Shown: positions 45,896 through 61,240 of the stretch, piece by piece
Numbering within the stretch: position 1 is the first letter of the stretch
How the letters are laid out: each line of letters starts with the position of its first letter
DNA from: a bacterium
GTDB lineage: Bacteria; Myxococcota; UBA727; JAUIJE01
Assembly: GCA_030431455.1 (NCBI GenBank)
Contig: JAUIJE010000008.1
Coordinates: 186,001-250,000 of the forward strand
Length of the DNA: 64,000 nucleotides
Direction: 5' to 3'
The notes under the pieces: generated by a model
What the model was told of the DNA's origin: nothing
Seen by the model: only the letters and a program-made list of their open reading frames with translations
Databases searched by the model: none
Position numbers and translations under genes: made by a program

Positions 45896-46349
45896 GGCTT
45901 GGCTCCTTGGTTTGGTTGGCAATCTCCGATCATGCAGAGGGCGGGCCATCCCACAGCTGCGTCCGCAGTAGGTTTGGCGACACACACGCTCCAGGTGTCC
46001 GCATCTCGACAACAGCTGTCGGCTATTTACCGGGCGAGCGGCGGTCGCCTGCGGTAGTCGGGGCCGGGCTACGCGCTCTTCAGCAAGCTGTGAGTGCCGG
46101 CCCGCTCTCGGCTCCCCGCGAGAGTCGCTCTCGCGAGGTCCACGACGGCTCGGGGGGTTTTCCCTGCGACGAACCGGTTTGAATCAGTTCAGGCGCCGAC
46201 GTGGCCGCCCACGATTGGCTCGATCGGATGGGGGCCGCCCTCCGGGTTGTGGGGAATCGTCGGCCCTAACGCGCTGCACGGCTGATCCGTGAAAGGGCTG
46301 CCCCGCTAAAAACCGATAGCCGGCCGGTTTTCCTGCTAGGTTGCCCGGC
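45896..46349. other. 454-base divergent regulatory gap
   Basis: No gene is visible. It holds a strong hairpin (CGCGAGAG-TCG-CTCTCGCG, 46117-46135), an AACCGGTT palindrome near 46172 and, at the right end, the dyad operator before the BlaI-type gene. No att-like copy of the tRNA end was seen here. Confidence 0.55.
46309..46331. promoter_or_regulatory. Operator dyad before the BlaI-type gene
   Basis: AAAACCG, nine bases, CGGTTTT: perfect seven-base arms. It overlaps the likely promoter region of the repressor gene (TAGGTT at 46337-46342 is a possible -10). The same arms and spacing recur at 47835, so this is a strong candidate for the repressor binding site. Confidence 0.65.
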
Positions 46350-46745
46350 ATGCCACCGCCGATCACCCTGGGAGACCTCGAACGCGCCGTGATGGACCAC
46401 CTCTGGGAGGTTTCCGACGTCGACGTGAAGGCCGTCTGGAAGGTAGTCGGCCGCCGGCGCAAGGTCAGCCACAACACCATCCAGTCGACCATGGACCGCC
46501 TGTTCAAGAAGGGGCTGCTCGACCGCGACAAGGTCAGCCACGCCTTCGTCTACCGCCCGAGCCTCAGCCGTGCGGAGTTCAGAGCACGCGTCATCCGTGA
46601 TGTCGCCGAGTCCGTCAGCGACGCGGAGACCGAGATCCTCGCCGCCTTCGTCGACGTCGCAGCTGACGCGGGGACCGACACGCTCGAAAAGCTGGAGGCG
46701 ATGATCGCCGAACGGCGTGCAAGAGAAACCCAGGAGACCGAGTGA
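46350..46745 (+). CDS. BlaI/MecI/CopY-family repressor
   Basis: 131 residues from ATG at 46350. The winged helix with ERAVMDHLWEVSDVDVKAVW, HNTIQSTMDRLFKKGLL and FVYRPSLSRAEF is the family fold; the C-terminal helices form the dimer. In BlaI relatives a partner M56 protease cleaves the repressor, and such a gene follows at once (stop and start overlap). CopY relatives sense copper directly, but no CxC pair is visible here, so protease control is more likely. It should repress the RND operon downstream. Confidence 0.88.
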   Translation: MPPPITLGDLERAVMDHLWEVSDVDVKAVWKVVGRRRKVSHNTIQSTMDRLFKKGLLDRDKVSHAFVYRPSLSRAEFRARVIRDVAESVSDAETEILAAFVDVAADAGTDTLEKLEAMIAERRARETQETE

Positions 46746-47791
46746 TGCACGCGCACGGCGGCCTCCTTGTGGTGCTTCTCTCGCTCGCTCTTGGCGCGCT
46801 CGTGGGCAACTTCCTCGTGGCTGCCGGCGCTGCGGGTTGGGGGCGCAGCCGGCTCGCGCGCCTCCCCGTGGCGCAGCTCCATCGCATGACATGGGCGGGT
46901 CTGCTCCTCCCGGGTGGCTTCAGCCTGCTGTTCACCGGAGCCGTCGTGGCCGTGCCGGCAGTCGCGCTCTTCGCTCCGACGTTGGATCACTGCGCAGCCT
47001 ACCCGGCGGCGCCTCACCTCTGCTTCACCCATGGCACGCTGGCGTTCAGCTCCGGGTGGGAGGCGGCGGTCGCCGTTGCGATCGGCGCGCTGGCGTTGGC
47101 CGCACTCTCGAACGAGTTGCGGCGGTTCCTTCACGCACGTCGGAGCGTTGTGGCCCTCTTCGGCGGTGGGGCGCGCGGCGCGTACGTACAGACCGACGAC
47201 GACATGCCCTACGCCTTCAGCCTCGGTATCGTCGCCCCGCGGATCGTGATCTCACGCGGCCTGAAAACCATTCTCTCGAAGGCTCAACTTCGTGCCGCGG
47301 TCGCCCACGAGGTGGCCCATGTGCGCGGGCGCGACGCGATGTGGCGTGTCGTAGCCCGACTCGCGTCGTTCCTGCTGTGGCCCTCGCTCCGTCGGCAACT
47401 GGTATCGCTCCTCGTCCTTGCCCAAGAAAAGCGCGCCGACCGGCGCGCGGCGATCACGGTCGGGAGCGCGGCGCTCGTCGCTGAGACCCTTCTTGTTCTC
47501 GGTCGACAGCACCCCGGTAAAGCCGCTCCGAACCTCGCCCCTGCATTTTCGAGCGGCTGGCTGGAGGCCCGTGTCGAGGCGCTCTGCTTGCCCCAACATG
47601 GCGACCGGCTCGTCTATCGCTCGGTGCTCACCGCCGCCGTGCTCTCCCTCCCGGTCCTACTTGCGCCCGTACAGCTGCACAGCGTCGTCGAGTCGTTGGC
47701 CGGTGTGATGGTGGCGTCGCCCGTACACGGCCACCACGCCGCCGGCCACGTCGACCTCGGCGAGCTCCGACAACCGCACCCAGAGGACTGA
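46745..47791 (+). CDS. M56-type membrane metallopeptidase (BlaR1-like, no penicillin domain)
   Basis: 348 residues with several membrane helices, zinc motif AVAHEVAHVRGRD (HExxH) and a third acidic ligand near LAQEKRADRRA. BlaR1 and MecR1 carry an additional extracellular beta-lactam-binding domain; here the protein ends in a short His-rich segment (SPVHGHHAAGHVD). It should cleave the BlaI-type repressor when its own sensor, probably metal, is occupied. GTG 46742 is an alternative start. Stops two bases before the TolC gene. Confidence 0.82.
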   Translation: MHAHGGLLVVLLSLALGALVGNFLVAAGAAGWGRSRLARLPVAQLHRMTWAGLLLPGGFSLLFTGAVVAVPAVALFAPTLDHCAAYPAAPHLCFTHGTLAFSSGWEAAVAVAIGALALAALSNELRRFLHARRSVVALFGGGARGAYVQTDDDMPYAFSLGIVAPRIVISRGLKTILSKAQLRAAVAHEVAHVRGRDAMWRVVARLASFLLWPSLRRQLVSLLVLAQEKRADRRAAITVGSAALVAETLLVLGRQHPGKAAPNLAPAFSSGWLEARVEALCLPQHGDRLVYRSVLTAAVLSLPVLLAPVQLHSVVESLAGVMVASPVHGHHAAGHVDLGELRQPHPED

Positions 47792-47793
47792 TC

Positions 47794-49125
47794 GTGACGG
47801 CCCCTCAAAGGCACAACCGCTGGCGCTCGAACCGAAAACCGATTCTTGGTCGGTTTCTCGCCGTCCTCGTGACGGCTGCGACGCCCGCTGTGCACGCAAA
47901 GACATGGACGCTCGATGCCGCGCACGAGCACCTGATGAAAGATGGACGCCTCGACGCCCTCACCGAGGCCGAGCGCGATCGTGTTCGTGCCGAGGCTCGT
48001 GCGGCGCTCCCGCGAGAGAACCCCTTTGTGGGTCTTCAGCGCGAGCAGTCGTTCGGGGCGACGGCTCAAGGTGGAGGTCTGACCTATTCGGGCAGCGCCG
48101 ATAGCTACGTCTGGCTCGGCCAGACGATCGACTTTTCGTTCCGGCGTGGCCTCCTCGACGACGCGGGCGCTCGGCGCGCGAACGCCGAGGGGCTGGTGGG
48201 CGAGGCCCGAAAGGTGGAGCGGCTGCTTGCCTTCGACACGCTCTTCTTTCGCGTCGTCGCCGACACCCAACGCTTGCGGGCACACAACTCGTGGCTGGCG
48301 CGCCTCGACGAGCTCGCTGCACGCATCGAGGCGCGCGAGGCGAAGGGGGATGCCTCTCGCTACGAAGTCCTCCGCATCGAGCGCGAGCGGAGGAGAGCGG
48401 AGCAGGCCAGACTGAAGACCGAGCTCGCCCGAGACGCCGACCTCGCCGAGATGCGCGCGTGGCTCAACGATCCCGACGCGGAGCTCGCAGACGACGTCAC
48501 GCTCGTTCCGCTGCGCGCGCCGGCCGCGGGGACGCCGCCGCGCCCGCTCCTCGCGAGGGCTTGGGACGAGCGCAAGAAGGCGCTCACGATCGAAGAGGAA
48601 GCCGCTGGCCGGTGGTATCTCCCCCCGGTCACCGTCTCCCTCGGGGGAAAGACGAACGAGGGCTATCTCGGAGGCGGTCTCCCCGGCTCGCTTGAGGCCG
48701 GCTACTACGCGACCCTCCAGGTGCCGCTCCCCGTCTTTGAGCGCGGCGACGACAAACGCGAAGCCCTCGCCTCGGCTCGACGGTCGGCGGAGCTGAGCGC
48801 CGAGCTGGAGACGGACCACGTGGCGCGCAAGGCCGAGGCTGCGCGCGCCTTGTCCTCGAAGGCCCTGGACGCGCTCGCGGCTCATCGCGCCGCCGCAAGC
48901 GAACGCGGCGAGGCGCTGGTGAAGACCGCGAGAGCCGCCTGGGCCGGCGGCGAGCTCCCACTGCTCGCGCTCCTGGAGGCAGAGCGCTCGGTCCTCGACG
49001 ACGAGCTCGTCGCCATCGATCTGACCTCCACCGCCCGACAAGCCGACCTCGTCCGTCGCGCGCTGCGATTCCAGGCCGCCCCGCGAGTTTCTGGCGGCCT
49101 GGGCGACCGAAAGAGCGACCCATGA
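47794..49125 (+). CDS. TolC-family outer membrane protein (second efflux system)
   Basis: 443 residues from GTG at 47794 with GAGGA eight bases upstream. Signal segment FLAVLVTAATPAVHA follows a basic start, then the coiled-coil repeats (HDRxxxAR-type heptads: LARLDELAARIEAREAKG). It forms the outer channel of the second RND pump and overlaps the adaptor gene (ATGA). A second operator dyad lies within its first codons, so binding of the repressor there could act as a roadblock. Confidence 0.85.
   Translation: MTAPQRHNRWRSNRKPILGRFLAVLVTAATPAVHAKTWTLDAAHEHLMKDGRLDALTEAERDRVRAEARAALPRENPFVGLQREQSFGATAQGGGLTYSGSADSYVWLGQTIDFSFRRGLLDDAGARRANAEGLVGEARKVERLLAFDTLFFRVVADTQRLRAHNSWLARLDELAARIEAREAKGDASRYEVLRIERERRRAEQARLKTELARDADLAEMRAWLNDPDAELADDVTLVPLRAPAAGTPPRPLLARAWDERKKALTIEEEAAGRWYLPPVTVSLGGKTNEGYLGGGLPGSLEAGYYATLQVPLPVFERGDDKREALASARRSAELSAELETDHVARKAEAARALSSKALDALAAHRAAASERGEALVKTARAAWAGGELPLLALLEAERSVLDDELVAIDLTSTARQADLVRRALRFQAAPRVSGGLGDRKSDP
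47835..47857. promoter_or_regulatory. Second operator dyad, inside the start of the TolC gene
   Basis: AAAACCG, nine bases, CGGTTTC: same arms (one base changed) and the same nine-base spacer length as at 46309. It lies about 40 bases into the coding sequence. Presence of both in a GC-rich region by chance is unlikely. Confidence 0.55.
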
Positions 49126-50837
49126 CTGGCCACAACAGCCCGAAGCTCCTCACCTTCCCCTTGCTCGTGCTCGCTGTGGGCTGTGGCCTGGGTCTCGCTG
49201 TTCTTTCTGGCTGCGAGAGCGACCACGACCGCGGCGGCCACAGTCACGGCGGGCACGACGACCACGCTGGGCATGACGACCACGGTGGGCACGACGACCA
49301 CGGTGGGCACGAGCAGGCGGGCGCCCCTGGGCACGGGCATGGCCACGGCGTTGAGGGCGGGCTCCCTGGCACGACCATCACCGACTTTTCGCGCTCCCCG
49401 GCCGACGGCAGTGAGACGGAGCTCTTCGTCGAGTTCGGCCCCCTCATCGTCGGCGAGGAGACGCCCTTCGCCGCCCACTTCACCGACTGTGGCGAGCTGT
49501 GGACGGCCGTCGGCGAAGGGGCACTGGTCGTCGAGCTGTCTACTGCGTCAGGGGCGGCAGAGACCTTTGAGGTCCGCGGGCCTTCCGTGCCCGGCATCTT
49601 CCGGCCGGTCGCCAAGCCGACCACCGCTGGACTGCGAAGGCTGCGATTCCACCTCGCCCGCGGGGCGCGCGTACACGTTCACGACGTCGGAGAGGTCACG
49701 GTCTATCCCACCCGCGCCGCGGCGGAGAAGGCGCTCGGCGGGGGAGAGGAAGAGGGTGACGACGGCAGCATCTCGTTCCTCAAGGAGCAGGCCTGGAGGC
49801 TCGATTTCGCACTTGCAGAAGTGAAGAAGCAAGCCGTGAGCCCCACAGTCCGGGTCTTCGGAGAGCTCGTCCCTCGCAGCGACGGTCGTGCGCGCGTCAC
49901 CGCCTCCGCGTCAGGTCGTTTGGTGGCGGCCAGCGGCGGACTCCCGCAGGTGGGCGCGGTCATCGGGCGCGGCACCGTCCTCGGGACCCTCGTCCCATCG
50001 ATGAGCGGGGGCGGGAACCTCGCGGCCATCCTTTTGCAGAAAGAGAAGGCGTCCATCGCGGCGAGCACTGCCCAGCGTGAGGTCGACCGCCTGACCTCCC
50101 TCGTCGAGCAGGGCGCGGTCCCCGCGCGGCGGCTTCAAGAAGCCGAGGCCGGGGTGGCTCGCGCAAAGGCGGACAGCGCCAGCGCGGATCGCTTGCTCGC
50201 CCAATACCAGGGCGCCGTCTCCGGTGGGCGCGCGCCGGGAGGCATCCAGATCGTCGCACCCATCGGCGGCGTCCTGACCGACGTCCCGGTCGTTGCGGGG
50301 TCGTACGTCGAAGAGGGCGAGAAGATGTTCGAGATCGTCGACACTTCCGTCCTCTGGCTCGTCGCGCGGGTACCCGAGATCAAACATGCCGAAGCACGCA
50401 AGGTTTTCGGCGGGGCATTCCGGCTGCCTGGCGGCGAGTGGCGCGACATCGTCGTCGGCGAGGGCGGCGTCTCGCCGTCGACCGTGCTCGACGAGGCAGA
50501 CCGCACGTTCCCGCTGCGCGTCGCGATCGAGAACGCGGACGGCGCGCTCCCGGCGGGCGCGAAGGTGGTCGTGGATCTCGCGGTCGCCGCCCCGAGGGTG
50601 CGGCTCGCGATGCCAGCGAGCGCGGTGGTCTACGAGCAGGGCGCACCCGTCGCCTACGTGATGGTCGAGGGAGAGTCGTTCGCGCGCCGGCCGTTGACGC
50701 TCGCCGGTGAAGTTGGCGGACGCGTGCTCATCGAGGAAGGCGTGCAGGCCGGCGAGCGCGTGGTCTCTACGGGGGCAATGTACGTGAAGCTCGCGACCGC
50801 CTCAGGCGCGGCGATCGGACACGGCCATGCGCACTAG
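49122..50837 (+). CDS. RND adaptor lipoprotein with His/Asp-rich N-terminus
   Basis: 571 residues with lipobox VLSGC, then repeats of HDDHxGHDDH-type sequence rich in His and Asp (about residues 30-75), which can bind metal. The rest is the usual adaptor: barrel-sandwich (SGRLVAASGGLPQVG), hairpin and membrane-proximal domain (AIPTEAVL-like VRLAMPASAVVYEQ). An extra N-terminal domain of ~130 residues (PADGSETELFVEFGPLIVG) precedes it, as in CzcB/NccB-type adaptors. Divalent ions (Zn, Co, Cd, Ni) are more likely than copper. Gene follows TolC by overlap and precedes the pump by 36 bases. Confidence 0.85.
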   Translation: MTGHNSPKLLTFPLLVLAVGCGLGLAVLSGCESDHDRGGHSHGGHDDHAGHDDHGGHDDHGGHEQAGAPGHGHGHGVEGGLPGTTITDFSRSPADGSETELFVEFGPLIVGEETPFAAHFTDCGELWTAVGEGALVVELSTASGAAETFEVRGPSVPGIFRPVAKPTTAGLRRLRFHLARGARVHVHDVGEVTVYPTRAAAEKALGGGEEEGDDGSISFLKEQAWRLDFALAEVKKQAVSPTVRVFGELVPRSDGRARVTASASGRLVAASGGLPQVGAVIGRGTVLGTLVPSMSGGGNLAAILLQKEKASIAASTAQREVDRLTSLVEQGAVPARRLQEAEAGVARAKADSASADRLLAQYQGAVSGGRAPGGIQIVAPIGGVLTDVPVVAGSYVEEGEKMFEIVDTSVLWLVARVPEIKHAEARKVFGGAFRLPGGEWRDIVVGEGGVSPSTVLDEADRTFPLRVAIENADGALPAGAKVVVDLAVAAPRVRLAMPASAVVYEQGAPVAYVMVEGESFARRPLTLAGEVGGRVLIEEGVQAGERVVSTGAMYVKLATASGAAIGHGHAH

Positions 50838-50873: not shown

Positions 50874-53800
50874 ATGATCGACGGCCTCATCGCCTGGTCC
50901 CTCAAGAACCGCGTCATCGTGCTGCTGGTTGCCGCCGGTCTGCTTGGCATCGGTGCCTGGCGCGCGAGCCAGATGCCCGTCGACGTGTTCCCAGACCTGA
51001 CCGCCCCAACGGTAACGGTGCTGACGGAGGCCCACGGCATGGCGCCCGAGGAAGTCGAGCGCTACGTCACGCTCCCCATCGAGACCGCGCTGAACGGGGC
51101 TGCGGGGCTCCGCCGGGTGCGCTCCTCGTCAGGTGTTGGCATCAGCGTGGTCTGGGCAGAGTTCGAGTGGGGCACCGACATCTTCCGTGCCCGCCAGGTC
51201 GTGAGCGAGCGCCTACAGACCGCGCGAGGTCAAATACCTGCCGATCTGGAGCCGCCCATGCTCGCGCCGGTGACGTCGATCATGGGCGAGATTCTCTTCA
51301 TCGCCATGACCAGCGACGCGCAGTCGCCCATGGAGATCCGAACGGAGGCCGACTGGACGGTGCGGCGTCGCCTCTTGTCGGTGCCCGGCGTCGCCCAGGT
51401 CATCCCCATCGGCGGCGAAGTCCGTCAGCTACAGGTCATTCTGTCGCCGGAGCGACTTGCGGCCTTCGACCTCGCCCTCGATGAGGTCAGCGAGGCCCTC
51501 ACCCTGGCCAGTTCCAGCAGCTCGGCGGGCTTCATCCTCGAAGGTGGGGAAGAGCTCCTCGTGCACGGGCTCGGCCGCGTTCACTCCGAGAACGACCTGC
51601 TCACCACTCTCGTCGCGCGCCGCGGAGGTCACCCGGTCCTCGTCCGCGACGTGGGCAAGGTGCTGTGGGGGCCGGCCCTCAAGCGAGGCACCGGCGCGTT
51701 CGGCGGCGAGCCGGCCGTGGTGATGGGCATCCAAAAGCAGCCTGGGGCGAATACCCTGGCGCTGACCGAACGCCTCGACGAGGTCTTCGCAGATCTTCAG
51801 GCGCGCCTGCCCGAGGGGATGAAGATCCACAGCGACATCTTCCGGCAGGCTGACTTCATCGACGTCGCCGTGGACAACGTGAGCTCAGCGCTTCGCGACG
51901 GCGCGATCCTGGTCCTCCTGATCCTGCTCGTCTTCCTCGGGAGCTTCCGGCCCACCGTCATCAGCGCGCTGGCCATCCCCCTCTCGCTCGTGGTCAGCGT
52001 GCTCGTGCTCGACGCGATGGGCGTCACCCTGAACACCATGACCCTCGGCGGCATGGCCATCGCGGTGGGTGCGCTCGTCGATGACGCCATCATCGACGTG
52101 GAGAACGTCGTCCGTCGACTCCGCGAGAACGCAGTCCGACCGGAGGCTGAGCGGCGGTCGGCCTTGTCCGTGGTCTTCGACGCCAGCCGCGAGATCCGCT
52201 CCTCGATCGTCTTCGCGACCCTGATCATCATGTTGGTCTTCCTCCCGCTCTTCTTCCTGAGCGGGGTCGAAGGTCGGCTCCTCGTTCCGCTTGGGCTCTC
52301 TTATCTCGTGTCACTCGGCGCTTCCCTCGTCGTCGCGCTCACGGTGACGCCCGCCCTATGTCTGCTCTTGCTCGCCCGGGGTGGCCACCAGGAGGAAGAG
52401 ACGCGGTTCCTACGCGGACTGAAGGCAGTGTTCGCGCCCCTGCTCGAGGTGGCGCTCAAGAGGTGGTTGGCCGTCGCCGCCGCGTCGCTGGTTCTGCTCC
52501 TCGCCGCTGGGGTCGCGCTGGCGTCGGCGGGGCAGAGCTTTCTCCCGCGCTTCAACGAGGGGACGCTCACCATCTCAGTGGTCACTGTCCCCGGTGTCTC
52601 GCTCAAGCAGTCGGACAGCCTGGCCAGGATGGTCGACGGCATCCTCCTCGCCCAGCCCGAGGTCACGCGGGTGGCCCGCCGCACCGGCCGCGCGGAGCTC
52701 GACGAGCATGCCCAGGGCGTCAATGCGTCCGAGATCGACGTCACGCTCGCGGTGAAGGAGCGGTCAACGGCAGAGTTTCTCGCCGCGCTTCGCTCTGCGT
52801 TCGCGGCGGTCCCCGGCACGAACATAACGATTGGCCAGCCCATCTCCCACCGCATCGACCACATGCTGTCAGGGACGCGCGCCAACCTCGCGGTGAAAGT
52901 CTTCGGCCAGGATCTCACGCTCTTGTACCGCGTAGCCGGCGAGATCCAGCGCGAGATGGAGGGCGTGTCGGGCATCGTCGACCTGTCGCTGGAGCAGCAG
53001 CCGTCGATCCCTTTCGCGCGCGTCGGGCTCGATCGGGCTGCGGTTGCCGCTCATGGGTTGGCTGCTCACGACGTCACCGAGGCGATGGAGATCGCCTATA
53101 CCGGCGCAGAGGTCGCCACGGTGACCGACGGCGACCGTCGCTTTGACCTTGTCGTGAAGCTTCCCGACGAGGAGCGGTCGAGCCTCTCTCGTCTGAAGGC
53201 CCTCCGCGTCTCCATCCCCTCGGGCGGGTCAGTGCCTCTCTCGGCGTTGGCCTCGGTCGTGCGCGACGTAGGGCCGGGGCGCATCGCGAGAGAGAACGTC
53301 GAGCGGAAGGTCGTCGTGCAGGCCAACGTGGCCGGAGAGGACGTGGTCGGCGTCGTAGAGGCCGTACGCGAACGGGTCCGCGAGCGGGTCACGCTTCCGA
53401 CGGGAGTCCACGTCGAATACGGCGGCCAGTTTGAGAGCGCGCAGCAAGCGCAGCAGACGATCTTCTGGCTCTCGCTCCTGGTGCTGCTGGGCGTCTTCGC
53501 GCTGCTCTTGAGCGTGCTCGGTTCGGCGACCGACACGCTGCTGGTGCTCCTCAACCTTCCGCTCGCCCTCATCGGCGGCGTCGTCGGCGTGTTCCTCTCG
53601 GGCGCGGTCATCTCGGTGGCCACACTCATCGGCTTCGTGACCCTGTTCGGCATCGCGACGCGCAACGGGCTGATGTTGGTCACCCACGTCCAGCACCTCG
53701 TGCGGGAGGAAGGGGTCGACGACCCTGCGGTGGCGGTGCGGCGTGGCGCGATGGAGCGCCTCGCGCCCGTCTTGATGACCGCCCTGGCTTCCGCGCTCGC

Positions 53801-54005
53801 GTTGGTGCCACTCGCGCTCGCATCAGGGGAGCCGGGCGCGGAGATCCAATCACCGATGGCCGTGGTCATCCTCTGCGGCCTGGTGACATCGACGGCGTTG
53901 AACATGCTCGTCGTCCCGGCCCTGTATCTTCAGTTCGGGAGCGTGACGCGCCGCCTTCGTGACGGAACCAGCACTGCGCAGGCAGCCAGCAGCCAGGAGC
54001 CATGA
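50874..54005 (+). CDS. HME-type RND pump (second system)
   Basis: 1043 residues, the normal length. NRVIVLLVAAGLLGIGAW and PDLTAPTVTVLTEAHGMAPEE at the N-terminus, and GALVDDAIIDVENVVRRLRE in the fourth helix place it in the metal RND family but outside the classical CusA and CzcA motif classes. The first periplasmic loop has no insertion, unlike the two other pumps in this window. ATG at 50874 follows the adaptor by 36 bases, and the stop overlaps DmeF. Specificity is unknown; DmeF next door suggests Co or Ni. Confidence 0.9.
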   Translation: MIDGLIAWSLKNRVIVLLVAAGLLGIGAWRASQMPVDVFPDLTAPTVTVLTEAHGMAPEEVERYVTLPIETALNGAAGLRRVRSSSGVGISVVWAEFEWGTDIFRARQVVSERLQTARGQIPADLEPPMLAPVTSIMGEILFIAMTSDAQSPMEIRTEADWTVRRRLLSVPGVAQVIPIGGEVRQLQVILSPERLAAFDLALDEVSEALTLASSSSSAGFILEGGEELLVHGLGRVHSENDLLTTLVARRGGHPVLVRDVGKVLWGPALKRGTGAFGGEPAVVMGIQKQPGANTLALTERLDEVFADLQARLPEGMKIHSDIFRQADFIDVAVDNVSSALRDGAILVLLILLVFLGSFRPTVISALAIPLSLVVSVLVLDAMGVTLNTMTLGGMAIAVGALVDDAIIDVENVVRRLRENAVRPEAERRSALSVVFDASREIRSSIVFATLIIMLVFLPLFFLSGVEGRLLVPLGLSYLVSLGASLVVALTVTPALCLLLLARGGHQEEETRFLRGLKAVFAPLLEVALKRWLAVAAASLVLLLAAGVALASAGQSFLPRFNEGTLTISVVTVPGVSLKQSDSLARMVDGILLAQPEVTRVARRTGRAELDEHAQGVNASEIDVTLAVKERSTAEFLAALRSAFAAVPGTNITIGQPISHRIDHMLSGTRANLAVKVFGQDLTLLYRVAGEIQREMEGVSGIVDLSLEQQPSIPFARVGLDRAAVAAHGLAAHDVTEAMEIAYTGAEVATVTDGDRRFDLVVKLPDEERSSLSRLKALRVSIPSGGSVPLSALASVVRDVGPGRIARENVERKVVVQANVAGEDVVGVVEAVRERVRERVTLPTGVHVEYGGQFESAQQAQQTIFWLSLLVLLGVFALLLSVLGSATDTLLVLLNLPLALIGGVVGVFLSGAVISVATLIGFVTLFGIATRNGLMLVTHVQHLVREEGVDDPAVAVRRGAMERLAPVLMTALASALALVPLALASGEPGAEIQSPMAVVILCGLVTSTALNMLVVPALYLQFGSVTRRLRDGTSTAQAASSQEP

Positions 54006-54964
54006 TGCACCACGAGGACCTCTCCCACTGGCAACACGAGCACGATTTCACCGGAGCCAACGAGAGCGGTGAGAGGCGGACACGCTGGGTCATCGCCCTG
54101 ACGTTCACCGCCATGATCGTCGAGATCGCCGCCGGCTACGCCTTCGGCTCCATGGCTCTGCTTGCCGACGGATGGCACATGGCGAGCCACGCAGGTGCGC
54201 TCGGTCTCGCGGCCTTCGCGTACTGGTACGCCCGTCGGCATCGCGATGATCGGCGCTTCGCGTTCGGAACGGGGAAGGTGAACGCCCTTGGCGGATTCTC
54301 CAGCGCGTTGCTGCTGGTCGTGGTCGCGGCGCTGATGGCCGTCGAGTCCATCGATCGTTGGCTCAACCCCGTCGACATCCACTTCACGGAAGCCATCGTT
54401 GTCGCCGTCGCCGGGTTGTTGGTGAACCTGGTGAGCGCGCTCGTCCTCCACGGTGGGCCTGGCCACCACCATCCCCATGAAGACGGGCACCATCACAATC
54501 ACCATCACCATCACCATCACGAACACCACGACCACAACCTTCGAGCGGCCTATCTCCACGTCGTCGCGGACGCGCTCACGTCGGTGCTGGCGGTGGTCGC
54601 GCTGGTTGCGGGCAGGTTCGCCGGCTGGAGCTGGATGGACGCGATGATGGGCATCGTGGGTGCGGTGCTGATCACTCGGTGGGGCGTCGGTCTGCTTCGG
54701 GCAACGAGTCGGATCCTCCTCGACGCGTCGGTCGCGCCCGAGCGGGTCGATGAGCTGAAGCGAGAGCTGGAGGCGATCGCCGATGCCCGGGTTGCCGACC
54801 TCCACGTGTGGCGATTGGGCGACGCAAAGATGGCGGCGGTGGCTGCGGTCGTGACGCACGACGACGTTTCGCCCTCGGTGTTCGCAGAGGTTGCGGGTCG
54901 GCTCGGCATGGCTCACGTCACGGTAGAGGTCCATCGGTGTAGCGACGCCCAGGAGGCTGCCTAG
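54002..54964 (+). CDS. dmeF: DmeF-type Co/Ni CDF exporter
   Basis: 320 residues with six predicted membrane helices and the zinc-type ion motif in ADGWHMASHAGAL (HxxxD and ADxxH), as in DmeF proteins that remove Co2+ and Ni2+. A cytoplasmic loop between helices four and five contains a His run (HHNHHHHHHHEHHDH). The C-terminal cytoplasmic domain (RVADLHVWRLGDAKM) is present. Overlaps the pump stop (ATGA). Supports a divalent-cation role for the operon. Confidence 0.9.
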   Translation: MMHHEDLSHWQHEHDFTGANESGERRTRWVIALTFTAMIVEIAAGYAFGSMALLADGWHMASHAGALGLAAFAYWYARRHRDDRRFAFGTGKVNALGGFSSALLLVVVAALMAVESIDRWLNPVDIHFTEAIVVAVAGLLVNLVSALVLHGGPGHHHPHEDGHHHNHHHHHHHEHHDHNLRAAYLHVVADALTSVLAVVALVAGRFAGWSWMDAMMGIVGAVLITRWGVGLLRATSRILLDASVAPERVDELKRELEAIADARVADLHVWRLGDAKMAAVAAVVTHDDVSPSVFAEVAGRLGMAHVTVEVHRCSDAQEAA

Positions 54965-55244
54965 GTTGCGACTTCTTGAACGGCTCCGCGAGCTAGCCGG
55001 GACCGCAGGGCGCGAGGCCCAGGTCCTCTCGCTCTGCGTCCGTCATCGGGACACACCGCTCGCCGCCAAGCTCATGGCGGGCCTCGTCGTCGCGTATGCG
55101 CTCAGCCCGATCGACCTGATCCCGGACTTCATCCCGGTCCTCGGGTTGCTCGATGACGTGATCATCATCCCGCTCGGCATCTTACTGGTTCGGCGTCTCG
55201 TTGGCCCCGCCGTCATGGCCGAGTGCCGCGAGCAGGTCGCGTCC

Positions 55245-58460
<3,216 letters not shown>

Positions 58461-58465
58461 CCCCC

Positions 58466-59773
58466 TCAGTGCGAGTGTCCGGACTCGCCGAGCGAGCCCT
58501 TTTGTGATTCGGACTTCAGGTAGAAGGTGGCCTTCGTGGCGACCGCCTCCCCCTCCTTGACCCCTGCAAGAACCTCGACGACTTGCGCGCTCCGGCGCCC
58601 GAGCCTCACCTTGCGTCGCTCGAAGGCGCCCGCCGTCGTCTCCACGAAGACGAAGACCGCGCTCCCTTCTTGGACGAGCGCGGCTACGGGGATAGCGAGC
58701 CCTTCGGTTGCATCGCCTTCGCCGCCCGCCGCGTGCGGGTCGGCGACCTGCACCGTCGCGTACATGCCCGGCTTGAGCTTCCGATCGGTGTTCTCGACGT
58801 CGATGCGCGCCCGGACGGCCCGGGTGTCGCGGTCAACTTCGTCTCGGATGTAGCCGATCTTCCCGACGAACACCCGGTCGGGCACAGACGCGGTGGTGAC
58901 CGCCACGTCATCACCGACGTGAACGAGCGGGAGGTCGCGCTCGAACAGGTCGATCCACACCCACACCGACGAAAGGTCGGCGATCGTGAACAGCGCTTTG
59001 TCCGGTGTGACGAGCTCGCCGCGCGTGACGTGCTTGTCGACGATCCGCCCGCCGATGGGGGCGCGAACCGGCACCGCCGACGCTCCCTTCTCTCCGAACT
59101 TCAGCGCAGCGATGCTCGCGTCGCTCAGCCCGTACAGACGCAGGGTCTCAGCAGCGACGTCGAGCGAGCTCCTGGCCGCAAGGTGCCTCCCTCGCGCCTC
59201 CAGGACCTCGCGCTCAGACGTGATTCGGTCCTTCAACAGTCCCTCTTCGCGAGCCAAGGCCAACCGTGCGACCTCTTATGCGGCCTTGGCCTGGAGGTAG
59301 GCGGCCTTGGCCTGCCCGAGCTCGATGGAGTCCAACACCACGAGCCAGTCGCCACGGTCAACATCGTCGCCGAGCGTCTTGAGAACGTCGGCCACGCGGC
59401 CCGGCAATCGAGCCGAGACGTGGGCGAGCGCATCCCGGTCGAAGTCGACCTCGCCGGTGGTGCTGAGCTCCGCGGGGAGGGGCCGACGCTTCACGGTCTC
59501 GGTGGTGAGGCCGATCCTCTTCGCCATCTTCGGGTCGAGAAGGACCCGCCCGGTCTCATCGTGGTCATCGTGTTCGTCGCCGTCGTGTTCGTCGCCGTCG
59601 TGTTTGTCGCCGTCGTGTTTGTCGCCGTCGTGCGTCTTCTTGTCGCTGCGGCTGGCGGACTCTCGATCGTGCTCATGTTTTTCGGTGCCGGTACCCCGGG
59701 AATCGCTGCAGCCGAGCGAACCGCCAACGCCAGTGAGCATCAGGAAGAAGCCGATCTGGTTGAGCGCCTTCAT
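58466..59773 (-). pseudogene. czcB: czcB-type adaptor gene interrupted by an in-frame TAA
   Basis: Reading leftward, a lipoprotein start (lipobox SLGC) and a His/Asp-rich region lead into the barrel-sandwich (VSARLPGRVADVLKTLGDDV), then AYLQAKAA and TAA at 59278-59276. The next codons continue the same frame as EVARLALAREEGLLKDR and give the rest of the adaptor to the stop at 58466 (LFERDLPLVHVGDDV; KLKPGMYATVQV). The joined protein would be about 435 residues, the family length. A single TAC-to-TAA change would explain the break, since Tyr fits the helix. Possibilities: real mutation, readthrough, internal restart at a TTG, or a sequencing error. Confidence 0.75.
59568..59627 (-). repeat. 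Four 15-base tandem repeats in the adaptor N-terminus
   Basis: Four copies of TCGTGTTCGTCGCCG or TCGTGTTTGTCGCCG, encoding a HDGDK/HDGDE-type repeat on the minus strand. The frame is kept whatever the copy number. It codes for the metal-binding His/Asp region of the adaptor. Confidence 0.85.
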
Positions 59774-61086
59774 CGCTCACCTCCTGCGGTTTCGACGCTA
59801 GCCATCCGCGTCGCCGTTCGTTGCGAGAGCGCACCGGACGCAAAGGAGAGGCGCACGCGAGCGATGGCCACGTCGGCGAGCGCGTCGACGTACGCCGCTT
59901 CAGCGTCGAGGACGAATCGCTGCCGAAGCAGAACGTCAGCGACGCCGAGCTTCCCCGCGATGAACGCCTTCTCCAGTAGCTCCAGCGTGGCGCTCTGCTT
60001 TCCCTTTACGCGGGTCTTCAGCGTCTCAGCCGCCTCTTCAAAAGCCGCCAGCTGCGCCCGCGCGACCGCGAGCTCCGCGTCCGCCACGAGCCGAGCCCGC
60101 GCCAGCTCCGTGCGGAGCGCGCCCGTGCTCGCGCGCGCTCGGAGCACGCCGGCCTGGTTGCGGTCAAAGATGGGTAGGGGGACGGTCACGCCTGCGCCAC
60201 CTACGACGTCGCCAGCCGGCCCATTCCGCCACCACGCTCCCTCAGTCTCGGCGCCGGCGTTCAGCGTCACGTCTGGCCACGCCTTCGCCTCCTCGCGGTC
60301 GGTGACCCGCTCGGCCTCCTCGATTCGCTTGGCTCGCGCGGTCAGGTCCGCGCGCTCGGCCGTCTCCGCCACCCACCCTGCGAGCGTGGTCTCGGTGAGC
60401 TCACCGTCGACGGCTGGCGGGTCTGACGGGTCGAGGCCGCACAACAGCGCGAGGCGGGTCCGTGCCGTAGCGTCCATCACCCGAATGCGGGCTCGTTGAG
60501 CCTCGGCCTGGCCGAGCTCGGCCTCCCACAGGTTCACGTCGAGAATCGTTCCGTCGCCAGCGTTCAGCCGCCGGTGCGCCGTGTCGACGAGCTTCTCGAC
60601 CAAAGCGATCCGGCGGTCAGCAACGGCGAGCTGGCCTGCGGCGCGCTGGGCGGCGACGAAGGCCAGCGCCACGGCCCGCGCCAGCCTGGTGCGCTCCGCC
60701 CAGACCTCTGCCTCGGCAGCGGTGACGCCCGCGGCTGCCGCGTCGATGCCAGCACCCCAGCGGCCGAAGAGAGGAAGCGATTGGCTCAGGCCAATGCTGG
60801 CGTCGACGCCCGGGCCGTCGGCAAAGCCGTAGCGACCACCGGCCCCAGCGCTCAGCGACGGGTTCTGTGGGAACACCTCGGCGCCCGAGAGAAGCGCTCG
60901 TTGGACGGCGACGTTCTGCTGAGCGACCGCCACGTCGGGTCCTGCGGTCAGCGCAAGCTGGACCGCCTCTTCGATGTCGAGGCGGCGTGAACCGTCGACG
61001 GCCATGGACGTCGAGGGCATGAGGAGCGCCGCGCAAAGGAGCGCTCCCCGACGCCGGGCGGCGTCGGGCGAGAACGTGACTTTCAT
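59770..61086 (-). CDS. czcC: TolC-family outer membrane protein (Czc system)
   Basis: 438 residues from ATG at 61086, with GGGAGG six bases upstream. A basic N-terminus and hydrophobic signal (GALLCAALLMPSTSMAV) precede LDIEEAVQLALTAGPDV, the usual CzcC start. Two alpha-barrel repeats with long coiled coils follow (QSLPLFGRWG; LPIFDRNQAGVLRARAS). ATGA overlap with the interrupted adaptor gene. It would be the outer membrane channel of the third RND system. Confidence 0.85.
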   Translation of the reverse strand: MKVTFSPDAARRRGALLCAALLMPSTSMAVDGSRRLDIEEAVQLALTAGPDVAVAQQNVAVQRALLSGAEVFPQNPSLSAGAGGRYGFADGPGVDASIGLSQSLPLFGRWGAGIDAAAAGVTAAEAEVWAERTRLARAVALAFVAAQRAAGQLAVADRRIALVEKLVDTAHRRLNAGDGTILDVNLWEAELGQAEAQRARIRVMDATARTRLALLCGLDPSDPPAVDGELTETTLAGWVAETAERADLTARAKRIEEAERVTDREEAKAWPDVTLNAGAETEGAWWRNGPAGDVVGGAGVTVPLPIFDRNQAGVLRARASTGALRTELARARLVADAELAVARAQLAAFEEAAETLKTRVKGKQSATLELLEKAFIAGKLGVADVLLRQRFVLDAEAAYVDALADVAIARVRLSFASGALSQRTATRMASVETAGGER

Positions 61087-61240
61087 TTCTGACCTCCCGA
61101 TGAACGCCGAAGGCGTTTCGGGCCTCGTCTCCGCGCCACGCGCGGGGACAACCAAAGGCAACCGTCGGCAACGCGCAGCACAAAGGCTGCACGGCCGCGC
61201 GATACCGGCTCACGGGGAGCCGATCAGACTCTGGATGAGG

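Follow-up and report, generated by a model that had tools for sequence, protein, structure and literature searches.

The window analyzed here, a 64,000-nucleotide stretch of a Myxococcota genome, carries a run of plus-strand genes in the order blaI, m56, tolC, adaptor, HME5-type RND, dmeF, and a DUF1232 gene. Their junctions overlap or nearly abut, with the exception of 36 nt 5' of the RND gene. The first-pass annotation had placed TolC, adaptor, RND pump, and DmeF in this order after the M56 protein, and profile matches bear it out. The features are as follows:

46309..46331, no strand: candidate operator 1, with a 17-bp core ACCGA-N7-CCGGT at 46312-46328, upstream of blaI
46337..46342, + strand: possible -10 element TAGGTT with TGC before it, 7 nt 5' of the ATG; a weak assignment by analogy with relatives
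46350..46745, + strand: BlaI-type repressor, 131 aa, without cysteine; recognition helix VSHNTIQSTMD; AAF(100)VD at the point where S. aureus BlaI is cleaved
46742..47791, + strand: BlaR1-like M56 membrane zinc protease, 349 aa, without a penicillin-binding domain
46985..47032, + strand: Cys/His loop DHCAAYPAAPHLCFTH, M56 residues 82-97, which lies between helix 2 and helix 3, where BlaR1 has EL1
47306..47320, + strand: M56 protease motif HEVAH, residues 189-193; E229 and D233 are invariant as well
47678..47692, + strand: M56 outer-side motif H313-S-V-V-E317 past the last membrane helix, conserved, LHHxxxE-type in relatives
47726..47749, + strand: His-rich tail HGHHAAGH of M56, present in the window protein only
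47794..49125, + strand: TolC-like outer membrane efflux protein (PF02321)
47835..47857, no strand: candidate operator 2, with a 17-bp core ACCGA-N7-TCGGT at 47838-47854, within the signal-peptide codons of tolC
49122..50837, + strand: periplasmic adaptor (CusB/CzcB type) with a His-rich N-terminus
50874..54005, + strand: CusA/CzcA-family RND pump, above the TIGR00914 cut-off, TM4 motif of HME5 type
54002..54964, + strand: DmeF-type Co/Ni cation diffusion facilitator (NF033827, 392.8 bits versus a cut-off of 250)
54966..55355, + strand: DUF1232 protein (PF06803), 1 nt 3' of dmeF, possibly the last gene of the operon

The pump belongs to the HME-RND family by its TIGR00914 score (797 bits versus a cut-off of 701) and its charged TM4 motif, AVGALVDDAIIDVEN, which we take to be of the HME5 type. 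DmeF lies within its own family, as its score exceeds the NF033827 cut-off. Tail to tail with the BlaI operon lies another heavy-metal RND set, encoded on the minus strand (55245-61161). It consists of a CzcA-type pump (motif DFGLIVDGSVVMIEN), an adaptor, and an OEP, and its end overlaps the DUF1232 ORF. No copy of the dyad described below was found in this second set.

The repressor and its candidate operators

The repressor had been recognized as BlaI from the outset, an identification that its match to PF03965 (Penicillinase_R) makes firm (E value of 2e-22, 80 bits versus a cut-off of 22.6, residues 7-120). It is the single PF03965 protein of the genome, and the closest solved BlaI by sequence is that of M. 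tuberculosis (Rv1846c, PDB 2g9w).

The dyad AAAACCG-N9-CGGTTT(T/C), reported in the first-pass annotation before the repressor gene and again in the start of tolC, is present at 46309-46331 (AAAACCGATAGCCGGCCGGTTTT) and 47835-47857 (AAAACCGATTCTTGGTCGGTTTC), with coordinates, arms, and spacing as it had given them; the second copy lies 45 nt into the gene. Both sites match exactly, and the chance expectation of about four sites window-wide applies to three mismatches. Across the whole 7.7-Mb genome, the slightly shorter form AAACCG-N9-CGGTTT occurs only at these two sites, before blaI and inside tolC. When the genome was searched with a degenerate version of the dyad, allowing two mismatches at most, the next-best site had one mismatch and the total did not exceed the reversed control. 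Matches elsewhere are thus background, and we do not claim a wider regulon.

An inverted-repeat operator in the repressor's own promoter is a trait of BlaI, MecI, and CopY, and candidate operator 1 shows it, being retained in relatives over the TTGAC -35 element. The TTGAC of the relatives is absent from operator 1 of the window, where a consensus scan recognized no sigma-70 promoter; the -10 assignment at 46337-46342 is therefore weak. The spacing of this element suggests a leaderless blaI transcript. In relatives, too, the distance from the likely -10 element to the blaI start codon is about 7 nt, suggestive of leaderless transcripts across the family.

Related loci were collected by an M56 protein search of 195 genomes of the phylum, followed by larger stretches and one scan of genome contigs (a plasmid search gave one weak M56 match). 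In these relatives, blaI, m56, and an efflux set follow one another, even though their M56 and TolC share only about 30% identity with the window proteins. The loci added come from Myxococcota (Polyangiaceae and Myxococcaceae), Pseudomonadota (Chromatiales and others), Acidobacteriota (Holophagaceae), and Armatimonadota, and the blaI-m56-pump order is retained in at least 30 loci from four phyla. These relatives also point to Myxococcota as the phylum of the window. The first-pass annotation had proposed looking for the same dyad ahead of blaI-m56-RND sets elsewhere. A 17-bp dyad pair (5-N7-5), with one copy before blaI and the other close to the start of whichever gene follows m56, was found, with varying half-sites, in 36 of 40 related BlaI-M56-efflux loci from Myxococcota, Pseudomonadota, Acidobacteriota, and Armatimonadota, which are not all independent, as many of those with TACTA half-sites are closely related. 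The remaining four comprise a locus cut by a contig end (L041) and three from Pseudomonadota (L071, L073, and L076) that have the same metal-type loop and an RND pump and in which no operator pair of the 5-N7-5 form was found.

The outer dyad of the relatives lies upstream of blaI and in most of them has TTGAC (the -35 element) at its center. The inner dyad typically lies 41 to 66 nt past the m56 stop codon, at the start of the next gene. In the two main classes, it has no mismatch in 30 of 34 loci and at most one in 33 of 34; shuffled regions match at rates of 0.04% and 0.4%, respectively. Half-sites of the other class were not found at the inner position in these two classes (at least two mismatches). 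The inner operator is translated in more than one frame (STILGSI, LLPTVVV, and TDRRSVF), and in locus L044 it sits in the adaptor gene rather than in tolC, so it is the DNA, not the protein, that is conserved there. Two variants deserve mention. In a Holophagaceae contig (L062, 2703-3800), dmeF and blaI point away from each other, and the operator 1 that separates them (ACCGATAGCCGGTCGGT) has the same TAGCCGG spacer as in the window. In an Armatimonadota locus (L070, 9440-11200), the half-sites form a third class (TGCGA/TGCTA), the inner operator (TGCTATTGACAATAGCA) is intergenic, and the M56 loop is rich in His but has no Cys.

Half-sites vary among loci, yet they change jointly at both sites and in step with the recognition helix of BlaI: AYTT[IV]MT occurs with TACTA, NT[IV][QG]S with CCGA (the class of the window), and AYNTVQT with the intermediate TCCTA. 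The CCGA class forms one clade of the BlaI tree (support 100/99), whose members in Myxococcota, Pseudomonadota, and Acidobacteriota have kept both sites. As the operator class changes essentially once on this tree, the agreement between helix and operator represents few independent events. We infer that BlaI almost certainly binds both sites. This natural switch from TACTA to ACCGA through a TCCTA intermediate, with few helix changes, should help to decipher how BlaI reads DNA.

The role of operator 2 is less certain. Rather than acting as a second block, it could belong to a promoter inside the operon that serves the pump genes, or loop over 1.5 kb to operator 1 in the manner of lac O1/O2. 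We give this a little less than an even chance. In its favor, the position about 50 nt past the m56 stop codon is constant in most loci, and the intergenic inner operator of L070 contains TTGACA. Against it, the spacers of the other inner operators have no TTGAC, a scan found no promoter-like site near operator 2 of the window, and BlaI is a dimer in known structures. We carry forward the reading in which operator 2 adds a further block before the pump genes.

The BlaR1-like protease and its Cys/His loop

The second protein appears to be a zinc protease of the M48/M56 type, an assignment that is borderline by sequence alone (30.5 for M56 against a Pfam cut-off of 31; 39.4 for M48). Its AlphaFold2 model (mean pLDDT of 82) has the membrane helices and zinc protease arrangement (HExxH...E) of BlaR1 and MecR1. 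When the model was compared by VIA-align, ranks 1 to 5 were S. aureus BlaR1 entries (Z scores of 10.9 to 12.9, model residues 11-275), with the next at 9.1; E values from a Foldseek search by itself were weak. We assign the protein to the BlaR1 kind because structure comparison picks BlaR1 where the Pfam scores are borderline. Residue 275 is followed by one further membrane helix, then by a short helix on the outer side and a tail. The chain stops at residue 349, some 25 aa past the last predicted helix, and has no Pfam match to a penicillin-binding sensor domain; the first-pass annotation had likewise described the protein as lacking this domain.

A Cys-x7-His-x-Cys-x2-His loop lies between predicted helices 43-77 and 105-140. 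Its residues C84, H92, C94, and H97 are invariant in 24 sequences, as are HExxH, E229, and D233, and the alignment columns of H313 and E317 are nearly invariant. Several of the extra histidines of relatives are absent from the window protein, which weighs against the metal reading. Near the C-terminus, relatives share an LH[HS]xxxE motif, which precedes the His-rich tail of the window protein. The tail noted in the first-pass annotation does exist, but it is unique to the window protein and is not the conserved candidate sensor; that is the EL1 loop (residues 82-97), judged by conservation. In BlaR1, EL1 lies directly before helix 3 and relays the signal to it (PMC9834060). The loop, at this position, is probably a metal sensor.

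In S. aureus, cleavage takes place at N101/F102 in BlaI and at S283/F284 in BlaR1 (PMC9834060). An AF pair is retained at the matching regions of BlaI and, for most relatives, of M56. We think it very probable that M56 cleaves BlaI.

The nature of the signal

A link to metal is suggested by gene neighborhoods. Among genome-contig loci with enough downstream sequence, an HME-RND gene is present in 11 of 11 loci with the Cys/His loop and in 1 of 46 other M56 loci (L070), a count uncorrected for kinship and obtained with a query built from loop-bearing proteins. The pumps of the relatives are mostly of the HME5 type, with the DFG type in L051, L056, L059, and L063; thus, one sensor cassette serves different pumps. 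Reviews link HME5, one of the HME classes listed in PMC7060636, to Ni and describe a Cu-related member in Synechocystis (PMC7060636, PMC3637150). DmeF also adjoins the operon in L059 (downstream) and L062 (divergent across operator 1). Together, these Ni-assigned pumps and DmeF neighbors weakly favor Ni or Co, and we put these metals, rather than another, at even odds. That metal of some kind is the signal seems likely. The Cus2 system of M. xanthus responds to Cu and Cd (PMC7010606); we found no tie between it and the BlaI-M56 loci.

The same BlaI/M56 switch could instead answer a signal other than metal, either redox through a disulfide between the two invariant loop cysteines or envelope stress, with the pump as one output. 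Such cysteines could indeed form a disulfide, and two loci with variant loops, L064 and L066, adjoin TonB-dependent receptors rather than pumps. We nevertheless regard this as unlikely, as the conserved histidines around the cysteines and the further His/Glu pair fit metal binding better, the loop tracks with heavy-metal pumps, and the Armatimonadota loop (L070) retains His without Cys. The variant loops belong to gammaproteobacterial BlaI-M56 pairs (EHCHGAVCVPH and EHCHADNCLPH; L064, 7243-10828, and L066, 6022-10500), and AAAACCGATAAGGGGTCTGTTT lies upstream of blaI in L064.

Two further possibilities carry little weight. BlaI might itself bind metal like CopY, with M56 just tuning or removing the repressor. 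It does score on the CopY/TcrY equivalog model, far under the cut-off (45.8 versus 122 bits); however, the window BlaI has no cysteine and relatives have 0 to 2, so the C-terminal Cys metal motif of CopY is absent, and the conserved metal-like site is located in M56. We therefore rejected CopY-type sensing as very improbable. That an ordinary beta-lactam or cell-wall regulator stands by chance before a pump operon is scarcely credible, and we rejected it even though BlaI and M56 are the families of the beta-lactam regulators, as M56 lacks a penicillin-binding domain, the pump linkage is retained across phyla, and an operator lies within the pump operon.

We conclude that the locus is reasonably likely to encode a self-contained, metal-gated switch based on regulated proteolysis, made up of BlaI, the BlaR1-like M56, and the pump operon. 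A BlaI dimer would bind the two 17-bp ACCGA-N7-TCGGT operators, over the blaI promoter and just inside tolC, and would repress its own operon, blocking it once more at operator 2, before the pump genes. In the periplasm, metal would bind to the Cys/His loop of EL1, with the His/Glu pair past the last helix probably taking part. Movement of EL1 would shift helix 3 and activate the cytoplasmic protease, as in BlaR1, and M56 would cut BlaI near A99/F100. Repression at both operators would then end, and the TolC-adaptor-RND pump and DmeF would be made. The proteolysis-driven metal sensor of the first-pass annotation, itself inferred, is thus favored by comparison (paired dyads, a BlaR1-like M56, and a loop that tracks metal pumps).

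Comparison with known systems

A penicillin sensor is missing from many BlaI/M56 pairs, which raises the general question of their signal. For this subfamily, a concrete and testable answer can be given, in which the residues, the two operators, and the genes under control are all named. If correct, it would bring metal homeostasis within the reach of regulated repressor proteolysis. It may be, with about equal chances either way, that there is a cross-phylum group of BlaR-type receptors in which an extracellular-loop Cys/His metal site replaces the penicillin sensor and gates repressor proteolysis, and in which, because of the conserved intragenic second operator, the pump genes are switched on less readily than the sensor genes. 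The system is a variant of the BlaR1/BlaI kind for which we found no earlier description in the open papers searched. Likewise, no report of BlaI/M56 control of an RND metal pump was found in the open literature searched.

With staphylococcal BlaR1/BlaI and MecR1/MecI, the window system shares the repressor family, the pairing in an operon, the zinc protease fold (Z score of 12.9), the EL1-helix 3 layout, the conserved Phe at cleavage-like sites, and operators over the promoter. Unlike BlaR1 and MecR1, its M56 lacks the penicillin-binding sensor and has a Cys/His loop in EL1; unlike BlaI and MecI, its repressor has a metal pump as output, a second operator inside the downstream gene, and an ACCGA rather than a TACTA-type half-site. 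The M. tuberculosis BlaI has an AYTTVM helix that matches the TACTA class, whereas the window BlaI has SHNTIQ and an ACCGA operator. The CopY/TcrY copper repressors likewise place a BlaI-family repressor over metal efflux; in the window, by contrast, the repressor has no Cys metal site, sensing has apparently moved to the protease, and the output is an RND pump rather than a P-type ATPase. With the HME-RND operons (czc, cnr, cus, and nrs), the locus has in common the TolC-adaptor-RND set, the HME5 motif, and a CDF transporter. For known operons of this type, the regulators are two-component systems, ECF sigma factors, or proteins of the MerR/ArsR types.
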